Assembly: GCA_902800325.1 (NCBI GenBank) | Contig: CADCDW010000035.1 | Span: forward strand, 1 to 33,833 | Direction of reading: 5' to 3' | DNA length: 33,833 nucleotides | Source: an uncultured Lachnospiraceae bacterium | Lineage (GTDB): Bacteria; Bacillota; Clostridia; Lachnospirales; Lachnospiraceae | Shown here: positions 1-27,650 of the stretch, piece by piece | How the letters are laid out: every line of letters begins with the position of its first letter | Position numbering within the stretch: position 1 is the first letter of the stretch | Notes under the pieces: model-generated | The model's input: only the letters and a program-made list of their open reading frames with translations | Database searches by the model: none | Told to the model about the DNA's origin: nothing | Position numbers and translations under genes: made by a program

Positions 1-6
1 CAAGGT

Positions 7-176
7 GCGACCATCTTATAGGTAATATTTCCGTTGATCAGTCTTATATAATTTGTGATTTACCTATAAGCACTCAAGATGCGACCGTCTTATAGGTAAT
101 ATTTCCGTTGATCAGTCTTATATAATTTGTGATTTACCTATAAGCACTCAAGATACGACCGTCTTATAGGTAAATC
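7..176. repeat. 74-bp tandem array A (2 full units plus a partial)
   Basis: Two full units (7-80, 81-154) and the beginning of a third (from 155) repeat with an exact 74-bp period and almost no divergence. Each full unit contains an inverted repeat, CTTATAGGTAA paired with TTACCTATAAG (for example 15-25 with 60-70), so the DNA or an RNA from it can form one hairpin per unit. No gene is seen in it. The array may continue to the left of the window. Confidence 0.9.
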
Positions 177-189
177 ATATAACGAGCTG

Positions 190-798
190 TCTGATAATGC
201 TTTGATGTTCTATAAGTCGGTAACAATCCCTGCCTTTTTGCAGCTTTTGTTACCGTTTTATCTTCTATTGATGCTTGGATTTTCTATGAGCCGGTAACAA
301 TTCCTGCCTTTTTTCAGCTTTTGTTACCGGTTTATAGTCTATTGATGCTTTGATTTTCTATAAGTCGGTAACAATTCCTGCCTTTTTGCAGCTTTTGTTA
401 CCGGTTTGTCTTCTTTTAATTCTTGGATTTTCTATGAGCCGGTAACAATTCCTGCCTTTTTGCAGCTTTTGTTACCGATTTATAGTCTATTGATGCTTGG
501 ATTTTCTATGAGCCGGTAACAATTCCTGCCTTTTTGCAGCTTTTGTTACCGATTTATAGTCTATTGATACTTGGATTTTCTATGAGCCGGTAACAATTCC
601 TGCCTTTTTGCAGCTTTTGTTACCGGTTTATCTTCTTTTGATGCTTGAATTTTCTATGAGCCGGTAACAATTCCTGTATTTTTTCAGCTATTGTTACCGG
701 TTTATAGTCTATTGATACTTGGATTTTCTATGAGCCGGTAACAATTCCTGCCTTTTTGCAGCTTTTGTTACCGGTTTGTCTCTTTTTTGATGCTTTTA
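190..798. repeat. 74-bp tandem array B, eight hairpin units
   Basis: Eight 36-bp cores start at 219, 293, 367, 441, 515, 589, 663 and 737, exactly 74 bp apart. Each core begins GGTAACAA and ends TTGTTACC (8-bp arms). Most have a nested CTGC/GCAG stem around a T-rich loop, separated from the outer stem by a symmetric 3x3 internal loop. The 38-bp sequences between cores are also alike, so this is not a CRISPR array. The start of the core (GGTAAC-A-TTCC) matches array A at 10 of 12 positions, so the two arrays look related. The stretch 799-877 holds nothing recognised, and no gene is seen in 1-898. Confidence 0.92.
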
Positions 799-877
799 TG
801 GTGTCTTATAGCCTGCCTTGCACATACCATGCACAAAAGTACTTGACACTTTATAACCCATGACTCTGTAATCGACC

Positions 878-901
878 CTTCCCCCGATAAACCGTAATTT
901 A
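878..901 (-). other. 24-nt element anchored on the chemoreceptor stop codon
   Basis: Read on the minus strand, the 24 nt beginning with the TAA stop of the chemoreceptor gene match 20 of 24 positions of the segment starting at the TAA stop of the polyphosphate:AMP phosphotransferase gene (21337-21360). The shared core is CGGTTTA-N-CGGGGGAAG. Function is unknown; it has only a short self-complementary part and is not a typical terminator. Confidence 0.6.
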
Positions 902-2359
902 TTTGAGTTCGTTTACGGACGCTGAAAGTCGTTCGATGCTTGACTTCATATCGTCCGAAAGCTGTACATTCTTTTGAGCCATTTCGTGAGCCTGCTGACT
1001 GGTTGCCGTAACCTCTTCGCTTATTGCTGAGATAGTCTCAACGCTTGAGACGAGCTCTGTATTGACTGCAAGAAGGTTCTCGATTGATTCTGCTTCCTGT
1101 TTTGCATTTTCTGCAACATCTGAGATAGTGTCTCTAATTTGCTCAAAGGTCATACGGGTACTAAGTATCAGACTGTTCTGATTAGCTCCTGCTTCAACCG
1201 CATTATCCACTGCCTCGCTTGCTGCATTGGCACCCGAAGTGAGTCTGCTAAGTAAATCACCGATATTTTCTGTTGCATCAGAAGTCTGCTGAGCAAGATT
1301 ACCGATTTCATCTGCTACGACTGCAAAGCCACGTCCTGACTCACCTGCTCGAGCTGCCTCTATGGAAGCATTGAGTGCAAGAAGATTGGTCTGACTTGCT
1401 ATATCCTGAATAATCTGAATGATATTTAATGCCTGATCCGCCTGCTCAACAAGAGCTGTCATCTCATCATTTAAGTCTTTGTTTATCTTATCTACATAGG
1501 CTGCGCTCTCAGTAAGAGAGTCCATATTATTTACACCGGTTTCAATATTCTTGTAGCTGTCCTTAATCATAACCTGCATATTTTCTGCAGCATTATTGAC
1601 TTCTTCAATGATACTCTGAATCTGTTCAGTCTGTGAAAGCTGTTCCTGAATAGATGTAGAAGTCTGACTTGTACCGGTTGTGATTTCTTCCATATTGTTG
1701 GCTGTGATATTCGAAGAATCCGAAACCTGATTGACCATTGAAAGAACCGACTGAGTCTCTCTTGTAACGCTGTCCGCTACCTGAAGTATATGGTTGAGCG
1801 TATTTTCTGCCTGCTTCTCCTGCTCGATAACTTTACCCATTCTTTCATCGTTAATATCCTTTTGAAGTTTGGTTGAAGTATATAAAAATATAACAAACAA
1901 TGATAAGGCAAGTATCTGGATTTCGTAATCTGCTATATTGTTAGCGGAAGTTTCACCAAGAACTGCTGCCTTATACGCAACAGCGGCGACATTGGCCAAT
2001 ATAGTCCAGATAGCTGTAAACTTCAAAAGTTTAGGATCAGCACATACGATAAGGTAACTCATCGGAATAACTATATATATGCTTACCATAGGTGTATCAC
2101 CTGTAAATACAACCATAGTATACATCGCTATGTATCCGAGCGTCGCTATGTATCGGCATGCATCCGAATCAGGGTTCGCCTTAAGTGACGTCCACGCGAT
2201 TATAAGAGGCACAAGGATAAGCACTGCCAAAACCCCATAATATGGCACTGTACGTTCCCCTTTTATAACCTCAAGAAGATAAGCTCCAAGTATCAAAGCG
2301 TCAGGTATAGTAACTGCCATAAGCAAAGCACGACTGACGCGATTCTTTTCAATTCCCAT
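899..2359 (-). CDS. Methyl-accepting chemotaxis protein, six-TM membrane type
   Basis: This is a chemoreceptor that would feed signals to CheA/CheW. About six hydrophobic helices fill residues 10-165 with only short loops, so there is no sizeable outside ligand domain; the membrane bundle itself may sense. A long cytoplasmic coiled coil follows directly, without an obvious HAMP domain. The conserved hairpin tip ([21 protein letters not shown]) lies near residue 335 and the return helix runs to the C-terminus. The start is set at the second in-frame ATG (2359). The first ATG (2365) directly abuts the AGAGGAGG ribosome site at 2366-2373, whereas the second has a 6-nt spacing. The gene stands alone between the 74-bp arrays and the SRP RNA. 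The ligand cannot be told from the sequence. Confidence 0.9.
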
Positions 2360-2453
2360 ATACATCCTCCTCTTATGTTAATAATTTTAAATTGCATATA
2401 ACAATGTACACATTTATGGTGATTAAATTATTTAATTAATCTATAAAATAATA

Positions 2454-2749: not shown

Positions 2750-2885
2750 ATTAATGCAATACATATGTTTTGGTATGTTTAAACCAAAATCGCATCTATT
2801 CTTATGTTTTTATACATTACAGCAAATTCACAGTATATCTATATTAGTATATAGAAATTATCGCTTTTAGTCAAGTAAAATAAGG

Positions 2886-3006
2886 TTAATGTTTTTCAAC
2901 AATAAAATAAAATTAATGTTTTTCAACAATAAAATAAAATTAATGTTTTTCAACAATAAAATAAAATTAATGTTTTTCAGCATAAAATAAGTTTAATGTT
3001 TTTCTA
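2886..3006 (-). repeat. 27-bp tandem array overlapping the tadA stop codon
   Basis: Units start at 2886, 2913, 2940, 2967 and 2993 (27, 27, 27 and 26 bp apart). On the minus strand each unit reads TGT, a stop codon, then AAAAACATTAA and an AT-rich tail. The first unit contains the real Cys-stop end of tadA (TGT TAG), and the later ones carry TGT TGA. The array therefore looks like serial copies of the tadA 3' end including its stop. Confidence 0.85.
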
Positions 3007-3468
3007 ACACTTTTTATCTGCCCTTAATTTTGCGAAAAAATCTTTCAACATACCGGAACACTCATCTTCAAGTACACCTTTTTTTACATCAACCTGATGA
3101 TTAAATTCCTTTATATCAAGGATATTTAGTATCGAACCGGCACACCCCGCCTTAGGATTCATACATCCTATCACGCACTTTGGTATACGCGCCTGAACTA
3201 TGGCGCCCGCACACATCTGACATGGTTCAAGTGTAACGTACAGTGTGCAATCCTCCAGACGCCAGTCTCCGATTACCTTTGAAGCTTTTTTTATGGCAAT
3301 TATCTCAGCATGAGCAAGAGTTGTCTTGTCCACATTGCGTCTGTTATAACCTCTGGCGATAATCTTTCCCTCATAAACTATCACGCACCCTATCGGCACA
3401 TCGCCATTGGCAGCCGCTTTTTTCGCAAGTTTTATCGCCTGCCTCATGTATCTTTCATCTTCATCCAT
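3004..3468 (-). CDS. tadA: tRNA adenosine(34) deaminase TadA
   Basis: TadA deaminates adenosine to inosine at the wobble position of tRNA-Arg(ACG). The 154-residue protein has the zinc-dependent deaminase signatures: HAE (in LAHAEIIAIKKA, near residue 53) for the zinc-binding His and catalytic Glu, and PCQMCAGAI (near residue 82) for the two zinc-binding Cys. The length is typical of the family. An AGGACGG ribosome site sits about 6-8 nt before the ATG. Its position upstream of the SRP RNA on the same strand is a familiar Firmicutes arrangement and strengthens the assignment over a general nucleoside or guanine deaminase. The 3' end is copied into a 27-bp tandem array. Confidence 0.95.
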   Translation of the reverse strand: MDEDERYMRQAIKLAKKAAANGDVPIGCVIVYEGKIIARGYNRRNVDKTTLAHAEIIAIKKASKVIGDWRLEDCTLYVTLEPCQMCAGAIVQARIPKCVIGCMNPKAGCAGSILNILDIKEFNHQVDVKKGVLEDECSGMLKDFFAKLRADKKC

Positions 3469-3518
3469 ATATCTATCCGTCCTTAATCATTTGTATTTCC
3501 TTTATAAATTATCTTATT

Positions 3519-3640
3519 TTAACTTACTTGATTTCTTATTTTAACTTACTTGATTCCCTTTTTTAACTTACTTGGTTTCTTATTTTAACTTACTTGATTC
3601 CCTTTTTTAACTTACTTGATTCCCTTTTTTAACTTACTTG
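3519..3640. repeat. 22-bp tandem array, six copies
   Basis: TTAACTTACTTG occurs at 3519, 3541, 3563, 3585, 3607 and 3629, an exact 22-bp period (about two DNA helix turns). The linkers come in a few variants (ATTTCTTATT, ATTCCCTTTT, GTTTCTTATT). The array fills the divergent gap between tadA and the acetyltransferase gene and ends directly at the -35 box of the latter. Confidence 0.9.
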
Positions 3641-3641
3641 G

Positions 3642-3670
3642 TTGATTTTGAATATTTTACATTATATAAT
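3642..3670 (+). promoter_or_regulatory. Promoter of the GNAT acetyltransferase gene
   Basis: TTGATT, a 17-nt spacer, then a perfect TATAAT, ending 28 nt before the start codon. The TTGATT -35 box resembles the TTGATT found in several of the preceding 22-bp repeats, so the promoter may have arisen from, or be controlled through, that array. Confidence 0.75.
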
Positions 3671-6100: not shown

Positions 6101-6160
6101 ATATTAATATCCCTTTAAATGTTTTTCTGATATCATTTAATCTATTATTTTTTTAATATT

Positions 6161-6269
6161 TATCAATCTTATACATTTTTACTGCATTATTTTAATGTTT
6201 ATCAATCTTATACATTTTTACTGCATTGTTTTAATGTTTATCAATCTTATACATTCTTGTGGCATTGTT
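6161..6269 (-). repeat. 39-bp in-frame duplications of the tatD 3' end
   Basis: TATCAATCTTATACAT occurs at 6161, 6200 and 6239, exactly 39 bp (13 codons) apart. The copy at 6239 is the true C-terminus of tatD. The two downstream copies would read NNAVKMYKIDKH-stop and NNAVKMYKIDKY-stop in the same frame, close to the real ending NNATRMYKIDKH-stop. They lie after the first stop and so are not translated without readthrough. Confidence 0.9.
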
Positions 6270-23650: not shown

Positions 23651-23884
23651 TTATCCCGGTCTTTCCTAAGCCATATCTATAAGCGTATCATCATGTTATC
23701 CCGGTCTTTCCTAAGCCGTATCTATAAGCGTATCATCATGTTATCCCGGTCTTTCCTAAGCCGTATCTATAATATCTATAAGCGTATCATCATGTTATCC
23801 CGGTCTTTCCTAAGCCGTATCTATAAGCGTATCATCATGTTATCTCGGTCTTTCCTCAGCCATATCTATAAGCGTGTCGACCAG
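23651..23884 (-). repeat. 45-bp in-frame duplications of the ddl 3' end, five copies
   Basis: CGGTCTTTCC occurs at 23657, 23702, 23747, 23801 and 23846, spaced 45, 45, 54 and 45 bp; the 54 comes from a 9-bp internal duplication, also a multiple of three. The copy at 23840-23884 is the real end of ddl (DTLIDMAEERPR-stop). The four others read in the same frame as DDTLIDTA-stop-ERPG-stop with small changes: GAG became TAG and AGA became GGA. The copies are nearly identical to each other and a little different from the coding one. Confidence 0.92.
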
Positions 23885-25078: not shown

Positions 25079-25150
25079 TTATAATATAAGTCTGAATATT
25101 TAAATTAAATACCAAACAAAGATAATTATTATAATATAAGTCTGAATATT
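25079..25150. repeat. Direct repeat, 22 bp, 50-bp period
   Basis: TTATAATATAAGTCTGAATA (plus TT) occurs at 25079-25100 and 25129-25150; the flanking bases up to about 25170 are also similar. It lies in the symporter leader. Each copy contains a TATAAT, so it may also be a duplicated secondary promoter. This, the operator-like repeat and two promoters are all that is seen in the 24905-25228 gap. Confidence 0.8.
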
Positions 25151-25228
25151 AAGGTTAAATAATAAACAAATAGATTTATTACAAAATATTGTGACAATTC
25201 TAATTCATATATTTAAGGAGTACCCAAA

Positions 25229-26735: not shown

Positions 26736-27569
26736 TTATTCAGAAAGTCCCGCGTCTATCGCACGCTGTTTTGCCGCGTCTATCTCAGCCTGTTTTTTGG
26801 CCTCATCCTCAGCAGCTTCACGATTAAGTCTGTCTATTATCTCCTGCGCGCGTCGAAGCTGCTCATCAGTAGCACCTGACGTATCAGCTTCATTTGTTTC
26901 CGGCGAATTAACAGTTTCAGTAGCTGTGGTACCGCCCGTAGATTGCGATTCTGCTTTTGAAACGGAATCATTTTTTTCCGCAGCCATACTTCTTCCTTCT
27001 TCTATAAATGCATCAACGTCCACCTTGCCGGCATTCATTATTTCAGCTATACGTTCCTCTTCCTGTCGTTTTTTCCACTGTTTCTCAACCGCACGCTTAC
27101 GAGCCTCTTCCTTTTCTCTGTTTATTCTGTTCAGTACCTCCATCGCATCTGCTGATGTTCCTTTCGGTATTTCATGTTTGAGAAGATCAGAATTTATCGT
27201 ATGTGTTTCTGCACTCTTCTTTGATGGCATATAGCCTTGAACATTTTCCACATCATCCGACGCAGTTACAGCATCATTCAAAGCATGCCCACCACTTTCG
27301 ATAGCTCGCTCAATACTTTCTGCAGCATGCCCGATTGTACCGGCAGCCTGCTCAGTCTTACCTGCAGCATGCCCGATTGTACCGGCAGCCTGCTCAGGCG
27401 AACCTGCAGTTTGCTCAGCTAAATCGGCAGCCTGATGGTTTTGAAGGCTTCCATCGCCGCCTTCAAATCTGTCACGCCCTTTCTTGTTGTTGTTTATATG
27501 AAGAATCGGCGTTATATGAATCTGCCACCATTTTATTATATTGGAAGAAATAAAACTAAAAAAATTCAT
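26736..27569 (-). CDS. Hypothetical protein with 14-residue repeats and charged coiled coil
   Basis: The family is not recognised. The 277-residue protein has a hydrophobic N-terminus (residues 1-25). Three 14-residue repeats follow: EQAAGTIGHAAGKT, EQAAGTIGHAAESI and ERAIESGGHALNDA. The rest is a long Glu/Lys/Arg-rich helical region, broken by a Ser/Thr-rich stretch. The first two repeats share a 34-bp stretch that is identical at the DNA level (27322-27355 and 27364-27397, 42-bp period), a sign of recent expansion. The ATG at 27569 is chosen because UGAGG stands 6 nt upstream; the alternative ATG at 27581 has no ribosome site. The role could be membrane-associated or structural; there is no further clue. 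Confidence 0.7.
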   Translation of the reverse strand: MNFFSFISSNIIKWWQIHITPILHINNNKKGRDRFEGGDGSLQNHQAADLAEQTAGSPEQAAGTIGHAAGKTEQAAGTIGHAAESIERAIESGGHALNDAVTASDDVENVQGYMPSKKSAETHTINSDLLKHEIPKGTSADAMEVLNRINREKEEARKRAVEKQWKKRQEEERIAEIMNAGKVDVDAFIEEGRSMAAEKNDSVSKAESQSTGGTTATETVNSPETNEADTSGATDEQLRRAQEIIDRLNREAAEDEAKKQAEIDAAKQRAIDAGLSE

Positions 27570-27650
27570 TGAAAACCTCATTTTTATCTATAACGCAAAT
27601 TCGTTACCCGTTGGTAAAAAAATATCCCATTATCTAAAAAAATTACTATA

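Follow-up and report, generated by a model that had tools for sequence, protein, structure and literature searches.

Phased palindrome arrays in a rumen Lachnospiraceae genome and a family of predicted nuclease-like proteins as their probable partner

Here we report two neighbouring arrays of inverted repeats, A and B, in the genome of an uncultured Lachnospiraceae bacterium (G000; 2.77 Mb, 145 contigs). The arrays are probably phased DNA sites of a nuclease-like protein and form, together with its gene, a two-part element like the REP/RAYT systems, of which the window holds an orphan A + B copy. The window, i.e. the whole stretch of DNA analysed, is an entire contig (G000:C35) of 33,833 nucleotides.

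The two arrays look like detached copies of a two-part system, so far unnamed, that combines the gene of a small nuclease-like protein with a phased palindrome array next to it and occurs in this bacterium and many related ones. Searches of open-licence PMC texts found no description of the arrays or of their link to the partner protein. The family, which Pfam and NCBIfam do not model, is now linked to a DNA element with lineage-specific arms and a unit length quantised to the helical repeat. If the proposed reading is true, sequence-specific cooperative binding becomes directly testable, and the system would represent a second, independent solution to the REP/RAYT arrangement, offer a natural set of matched nuclease-site pairs and explain the intergenic tandem repeats at which the contigs of G000 break.

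Results

Array A (TRF 1-173, 2.3 copies, 96% matches) and array B (TRF 197-777, 7.9 copies, 90% matches) both have a period of 74 without indels, which bears out the exact 74-bp period given for the two neighbours by the first-pass annotation. As inverted-repeat arrays with a step of 74 bp, they were located at 16-173 (A) and 219-772 (B). The eight B cores had been described as keeping this spacing, and their starts (219, 293, 367, 441, 515, 589, 663 and 737) are indeed each exactly 74 bp apart; the shortened inner stems of copies 2 and 7 were also recovered. Array A is truncated, because the contig begins inside an A loop. The alternating-arm scan of the window found nothing beyond A and B. 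Chance was excluded: when alternating inverted-arm arrays were searched for de novo in the window and in 3 x 400 kb of sequence from the genus, the only ones found besides those of the window were an A array and a B array of G008. The features at the start of the window are:

1..15, truncated loop of the first A hairpin; the contig begins here
16..25, plus strand, A right arm TTATAGGTAA
26..59, A spacer, 34 bp
60..99, A site 2: TTACCTATAA at 60-69, loop of 20 at 70-89, TTATAGGTAA at 90-99
100..133, A spacer, 34 bp
134..173, A site 3: TTACCTATAA at 134-143, loop of 20 at 144-163, TTATAGGTAA at 164-173
174..216, A-B linker, by eye also between the A and B sites of other G000 composites (L002, L003, L004)
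219..254, B site 1, GGTAACAA-N20-TTGTTACC
293..328, B site 2, inner stem shortened
367..402, B site 3
441..476, B site 4
515..550, B site 5
589..624, B site 6
663..698, B site 7, inner stem shortened, outer arms kept
737..772, B site 8
773..895, flank, by eye wholly or partly common to other G000 composites (L002, L003, L004)
899..2365, minus strand, gene with a methyl-accepting chemotaxis protein domain, oriented with its 3' end towards the array and not thought to be part of the system

The A frame is TTACCTATAA-N20/21-TTATAGGTAA-N34, i.e. a palindromic site of 40 or 41 bp and a 34-bp spacer. It was examined in 112 hairpins from array regions of G000, G008, G014, G020 and G024, the regions being picked by exact-pattern match and the arms then allowed two mismatches. 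The loop measured 21 bp in 90 hairpins, 20 bp in 21 and 22 bp in one, the spacer measured 34 bp in 78 of 86 cases, and the arms were exact in 101 (left) and 105 (right) of the 112. Nearly all A arrays start with TTACCTATAA and finish with TTATAGGTAA, the exceptions being the window (contig start), L082 and L088 (left arm last) and L075 (final right arm with two mismatches). Loops and spacers differ between arrays; all that they keep is a purine/pyrimidine preference at either end of the loop and A/T at either end of the spacer.

The B frame is CCGGTAACAA-N20-TTGTTACCGG-N34 or, with the flanking bases set apart, (CC)GGTAACAA-N20-TTGTTACC(GG) plus 34 bp. The 8-bp core is better conserved than the two flanking bases, which complete the plan of 10 + 20 + 10 + 34 = 74; loops measured 20 bp in 62, 19 bp in 12 and 21 bp in 2 of 76 distinct B hairpins. 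Since B units follow the plan of A, the likeness of the two is geometric (40 or 41 + 34). A common ancestry had been suggested from the shared string GGTAA-A-TTCC (10 of 12 positions), but this could not be upheld: the match pairs the right arm of A with the left arm of B, and the likeness is absent from most other copies examined.

The arms are strongly conserved. In 62 comparisons of homologous A units from five related species, in which the pairs are non-independent and a paralogous family makes up one of the five groups, arms differed at 19 of 1240 positions (1.5%), and loops (218 of 1301) and spacers (202 of 1292) at about 16%; loops were matched if equally long with at most 8 differences, spacers were counted if equally long with at most 15, and spacer length was unequal in five comparisons. 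At three orthologous A sites, each compared in one species pair, arms differed at 3 of 240, loops at 28 of 252 and spacers at 24 of 204 positions (arms versus loops plus spacers at 52 of 456, Fisher p = 2e-7), so that at such resident sites the arms evolve at roughly a tenth of the rate of loops and spacers. The 4-fold sites of the gene beside one orthologous array differ at 8 of 60, 7 of 61 and 2 of 60 positions in three species pairs; the A loops and spacers therefore look near neutral, and the arms constrained in place. The conserved spacers of the first-pass annotation are borne out for this young locus; A arrays in general do not show them.

No compensating arm change was found in the 18 deviant A hairpins (of 112), and no pairing covariation in A loops and spacers. 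In B, covariation was seen at one inner pair adjoining the arm (paired in 58 of 76 hairpins; equalled by 1 of 1000 shuffles; kinship included), and one hairpin of L047 has both arms altered to match. Uncompensated arm mutations had been named as evidence against function; such changes do occur, but their rarity points to recognition of the sequence and not to pairing of the stem. What is conserved is mainly sequence and spacing, and selection acts on these at the DNA level, not on an RNA stem.

The arrays clearly recur in the genome and its relatives, where the first-pass annotation had proposed to look for them. Among 37 genomes of the genus, tandem B sites were found in 3, paired A arms in 5 and A sites in 6, and the relatives with the same arrays are Lachnospiraceae genomes from rumen or ruminant metagenomes (RUG10816, RGIG4472). 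By their leuB genes, G000, G008, G014, G016, G020 and G024 form a tight group (97-98% identical to G000); elsewhere in the genus full-length leuB is 83-87% identical, a fragment in G023 is 98% identical, and 4 of the 37 genomes gave no match. Both arrays were absent by exact pattern from G016 (87% complete, same leuB clade) and G023 (75%). An exact-pattern scan of genome contigs gave 26 stretches; some matches in other bacteria were by eye not such arrays. Viral contigs gave no match to the A pattern and one to the B pattern (L200), which was rejected as a B array, its GGTAACAA sites being packed closely, 44 bp apart.

The arrays are intergenic and have unrelated genes as neighbours (30 neighbours scanned). 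They lie outside ORFs of at least 80 aa, except for short ORFs overlapping L083, L085 and L090, and coding potential was rejected or put lower as an explanation. Several occupy short gaps between co-directional genes, where they are probably co-transcribed. B arrays of about 90% identity, with flanks common by eye, occur at several places in G000. Filled and empty sites both occur between purC and leuB, where G016 has a gap of 18 bp, and the longer gaps of G000 (444 bp) and G008 (297 bp) contain a B array. The window pair is best read as an orphan A + B composite, one of several dispersed copies in the rumen Lachnospiraceae clade, to which all demonstrated orphan arrays belong; a 400-kb sample of G303 held one gene with one array beside it and no orphan array. 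Seven contigs of G000 (C6, C35, C39, C40, C48, C115 and C123) end in or within about 250 bp of an A or B array. Arrays thus interrupt the assembly at contig ends, and the copy numbers of A and B are lower bounds.

The genes adjacent to arrays encode one protein family of about 270-285 aa. Its members lie directly downstream of an A array (one orthologous locus in G014, G008 and G024; 284 aa), a B array (G008:C26; 272 aa) and a B-type array (G061, Eubacterium sp.; 271 aa). Identity is 60% between the two B-associated proteins and 38-39% between the A-associated protein and either of them. Searches of Pfam and NCBIfam gave no convincing match (best single members E 0.0012 and 0.0015, to unrelated models) and hence no match to a toxin family. 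The family is present in 19 of the 37 genomes of the genus, 49 of 295 sampled genomes of the order, often with several genes per genome, and 36 of 391 sampled genomes of the class, of which 10 belong to the bacterium's own family. When viral contigs were scanned with a profile, no relative was found. Partial matches were obtained in 8 plasmid records (coverage 23-49%) and 3 faecal phage records (coverage 40-79%); the faecal phage record MT839528.1 (4212 bp) carries a distant relative (79% coverage, 33% identity).

An AlphaFold model with 83 homologs (pLDDT 95.1, pTM 0.74) superseded a poor one with five sequences (pLDDT 52). With this model, Foldseek gave no match at E < 0.001; it returned several prefoldin chains (probability 0.96-0.99, E 0.1-0.5) and, weakly (E 0.09-0.2), an R2 retrotransposon protein, MunI (E 0.09) and 3ijm. 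The R2 protein carries a restriction-like endonuclease. From secondary structure and motifs, prefoldin would fit the N-terminal helix-hairpin-helix and the nucleases the C-terminal half, and the predicted fold is an N-terminal prefoldin-like coiled coil with a C-terminal PD-(D/E)XK-like domain. Invariant in the 83 homologs are R161, S162, K163, E165, P194, D195, E210, H211, G213, Y220 and E247; a PD-(D/E)XK assignment, which calls for the fold and conserved acidic residues, is matched by invariant P194, D195, E165 and E210 and by PADLOC profiles. All 83 aligned members match PDC-S68 by their C-terminal part (best 2.2e-32; the C-terminal 110 residues in the first member), 63 match PDC-S69 and 56 match HEAT_CxxC_PDDEXK at E 0.01, so that the C-terminal domain is what the family has in common with these. 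The PDC-S68 profiles have 1202-1273 positions, and the family therefore matches one domain of a large protein. A profile search of solved structures gave weak matches (best E 0.0037, to a carbon-nitrogen hydrolase; T7 endonuclease I, 0.034). The protein is thus nuclease-like by prediction and may cut DNA.

The gene and the array are linked far beyond the clade of the window. Arrays were sought with an arm-agnostic detector, which requires that a 7-bp arm recur in three or more units and its reverse complement in two or more. Of 99 homolog loci, 52 had arrays, including arrays of other arms in other genera, versus 1 of 300 control pieces of 3.9 kb, all from the same genus (G000, G006, G008); the single positive control piece was an A array. 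The 99 loci comprised 30 from the genus, 28 from the order (30 less two repeats), 40 from the order picked among the matches listed, and L208. Of 30 leuB control loci, 2 were positive, both for the B arrays at purC-leuB. A stricter detector found arrays at 37 of the 99 loci; its control counts were the same (1 of 300 and 2 of 30). Both versions miss arrays visible by eye, e.g. the home array of L222, and two loci that passed with long, doubtful periods (L234, L315) are included in the 52 but were left out when periods were tested. Held-out loci outside the order (10 returned by the search and 20 picked among the matches listed) had arrays in 18 of 30 cases. The loci without a detected array (47 of 99 and 12 of 30) may reflect weak arms, which the detector misses, or true absence. 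The array lay upstream only at 38 of 50 loci, downstream only at 10 and on both sides at 2.

Arms track the protein lineage. An arm 7-mer was common to 6 of 9 protein pairs of at least 80% identity (the other 3 had no detected 7-mer in common), 2 of 23 at 60-80%, 1 of 20 at 50-60%, 0 of 105 at 40-50%, and 4 of 1068 that were below 40% or without match. Given the scarcity of shared 7-mers below 80% protein identity, turnover of the arms is fast.

In the source genome itself, a 97%-complete assembly, no A- or B-type protein was found; its single homolog (C26) goes with a TGGCTA-type array of 74 bp. At this locus (L222; G000:C26:1-2828) the gene occupies 516-1328, and the home array, a third type and again of seven turns, consists of six units of exactly 74 bp with TGGCTA/TAGCCA arms. 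G020 (88% complete) also has A arrays, and no intact A-type protein was found in it. The A arms of these two genomes are not clearly more decayed than those of G008, G014 and G024 (deviant hairpins: 3 of 13 in G020, 1 of 11 in G000 and 14 of 88 in the other three). A arrays without an A-type protein may reflect assembly gaps, recent loss or recognition by another member of the family.

The unit lengths correspond to whole numbers of helical turns (4-8 or 10). The periods of 50 arrays cluster at 41-42, 52-54, 61-64, 71-75, 83.5-84.5 and 106-108 bp, and in a scan from 7 to 16 bp the best repeat was 10.7 bp, both for all arrays (R 0.76, n = 50) and for one array per 50%-identity protein cluster (R 0.82, n = 25); none of 5000 random sets was as good in either case. 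The phasing prediction was set down before the held-out set was scored. Its 18 periods fell at 51-54, 61-62, 73-74, 83-85 and 104 bp, with R(10.7) 0.83, a best fit at 10.44 bp, R(10.5) 0.85 and a phase of -8 degrees. Combined, 63 of 68 periods were no more than 2.1 bp off a multiple of 10.5, where a uniform distribution would give 27, and the mean phase at 10.5 was -0.1 degrees. Because related arrays are non-independent, the nominal Rayleigh p-values (4.8e-13 for n = 50 at 10.5; 3.9e-6 for the 18 held-out arrays at 10.7) exaggerate the significance; the replication in other orders does not depend on them.

As a negative control, 20 other tandem repeats of 40-110 bp from the window and sampled tracts were unphased (R(10.5) 0.08; 9 of 20 within 2.1 bp). 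In 14 of them the period is divisible by 3, and the remaining six have R 0.58 at a phase of -114 degrees, off the multiples. The idea that 74 bp is close to seven turns and puts all hairpins on the same side of the DNA is therefore supported by the wider family, in which unit lengths are multiples of 10.5 bp and control repeats are not phased; the option of a protein-binding array gains from the same whole-turn unit lengths.

Discussion

We infer a function for the arrays, with or without a benefit to the host, as rows of double-stranded DNA sites that would be bound sequence-specifically and cooperatively by proteins of the family. Each arm would be a half-site (TTACCTATAA in A, CCGGTAACAA in B), and inverted pairs combined with a whole-turn unit would place all pairs on one face of the DNA, where protein dimers could line up along the array. 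The protein would bind its home array, probably controlling its own gene as well, as the position of the home array upstream of the gene suggests. It may also have helped to spread array copies in the past: the dispersed A and B arrays of the rumen clade suggest copying away from home, as of REPs by RAYTs. Resident copies would afterwards have been kept through selection on arms and spacing, and the selection seen on resident arms suggests that binding remains in use at these sites. An extension of this reading, possible though doubtful, is that an active PD-(D/E)XK nuclease is kept in a one-sided filament along the phased array that belongs to it. This array would then act as a DNA holster and autoregulator from which the nuclease is released or redirected on a trigger, e.g. 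invading DNA or replication stress, and orphan arrays would have spread and been kept as extra docking sites.

It is unlikely that the arrays are purely selfish interspersed repeats (MITE/BOX/ERIC-like), with the protein as a mobilising enzyme only and resident copies without a role. B arrays of about 90% identity with common flanks at several places in G000, the filled and empty purC-leuB sites of different species and the lack of a theme among the neighbouring genes scanned are in keeping with such repeats, of which MITEs are marked by terminal inverted repeats, a duplicated target and a transposase acting in trans. Against this stands the roughly tenfold slower evolution of orthologous arms relative to loops and spacers, because of which resident copies must be constrained in place, unless gene conversion keeps the arms. 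Still less probable is that an ordinary host protein, i.e. a nucleoid or transcription regulator, binds the arrays and that the nuclease gene is only a frequent neighbour. The persistence of A arrays in G000 and G020 without an intact A-type protein and the dispersed intergenic placement would fit a host protein, but the arrays are linked to one protein family across genera and orders, and their arms differ by protein lineage.

The least probable of the alternatives is an RNA system in which transcribed hairpins act as an antidote of the type III toxin-antitoxin kind, as mRNA stabilisers or as processing sites. In ToxIN-type loci the array likewise lies upstream of the nuclease gene, as most arrays do here; several arrays are probably co-transcribed with the genes around them, and the covarying inner pair of B, kinship included, also speaks for an RNA. 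However, unit lengths are quantised at the DNA helical repeat, the arms are symmetric on both strands, arrays also occur downstream, and no array in the window or at 11 further loci matched Rfam at gathering thresholds. The repetitive non-coding RNA considered by the first-pass annotation is further disfavoured by the deviant A hairpins, none of them compensated, and by the lack of covariation in A loops and spacers. The preferred reading, as phased sites of a nuclease-like protein, was compared with known systems.

Type III toxin-antitoxin systems (ToxIN, CptIN) combine short RNA antitoxin repeats with a downstream gene for a nuclease of the ToxN fold. Their likeness to the present loci lies in the tandem array beside, often upstream of, a nuclease gene; unlike them, the loci have a protein of another predicted fold, DNA-phased units of 41-108 bp, and arrays that are also downstream and dispersed. 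Membership was rejected, the best Foldseek matches being to other folds (all weak) and arrays occurring downstream as well. CRISPR arrays are regular repeats with spacers, and the regular repeats separated by spacers are what the present arrays have in common with them. Their spacers, however, persist between species and diverge like near-neutral DNA; being near-identical in the window and homologous between species at the same sites, they are not unique acquired spacers, and the first-pass annotation rightly set CRISPR aside. BOX elements are built of boxA-boxB(n)-boxC modules, with internal repeats in variable number, and we know of neither a cognate nuclease nor helical phasing for them. 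The present arrays are similarly interspersed, intergenic and internally repeated, which is an architectural analogy only. Pneumococcal BOX is an interspersed intergenic element that is argued to be parasitic (PMC3049150), unlike the present arrays, whose arms are strongly selected in place.

The closest likeness is to REP/BIME sequences with their RAYT, for which PMC2817692 describes a cognate enzyme flanked by repeats, alternating units and co-evolution. In both cases, short palindromic units alternate in orientation, are regularly spaced and are dispersed between genes, and the partner gene is flanked by cognate repeats that diverge with it (here, 52 of 99 and 18 of 30 loci had arrays). Unlike the Y1/HUH tyrosine transposase RAYT, the partner here is PD-(D/E)XK-like, and unlike in REPs, the arms are 10 bp and the loops 20 bp long, and the unit length is fixed to whole helical turns. 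REP palindromes carry a GTAG or CGTC tag at one end (PMC3733652); no such tag was found in the profile of A arm, loop and spacer. Membership of REP/RAYT was rejected, there being no match to Y1_Tnp (PF01797) in the five array-rich genomes (G000, G008, G014, G020 and G024; 8 of the 37 genomes of the genus matched) and no GTAG tag.

Several minor observations were made at or near array sites. The purC-leuB gap of L173 (G020), L172 (G024), L174 (G014) and L187 (G004) holds a different, nested palindromic element, GATAATTCAT...GCAGGTAC...ATGAATT, which in L173 had no Rfam match. A solitary A site, L206 (G014:C119:2458-2498), lies just upstream of a gene that is Lrp/AsnC-like by eye, and in L075 (G024:C56) a multi-unit A array is 32 bp away from a gene of the AsnC family (Pfam). 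Since both have a TPM-domain gene (by eye) on the other side, they could be the same site, with a single unit in one species and more than one in the other.

The window also contains other tandem repeats (TRF) at 2876-3009, 3512-3643, 6147-6269, 23651-23875 and 25079-25188, with units of 27, 22/44/66, 39, 45/99 and 50 bp, respectively. A 42-bp tandem repeat at 27308-27434 lies within a predicted minus-strand ORF (26736-27581), and positions 2454-2716 on the minus strand encode the Bacterial large SRP RNA (Rfam RF01854, 187 bits).
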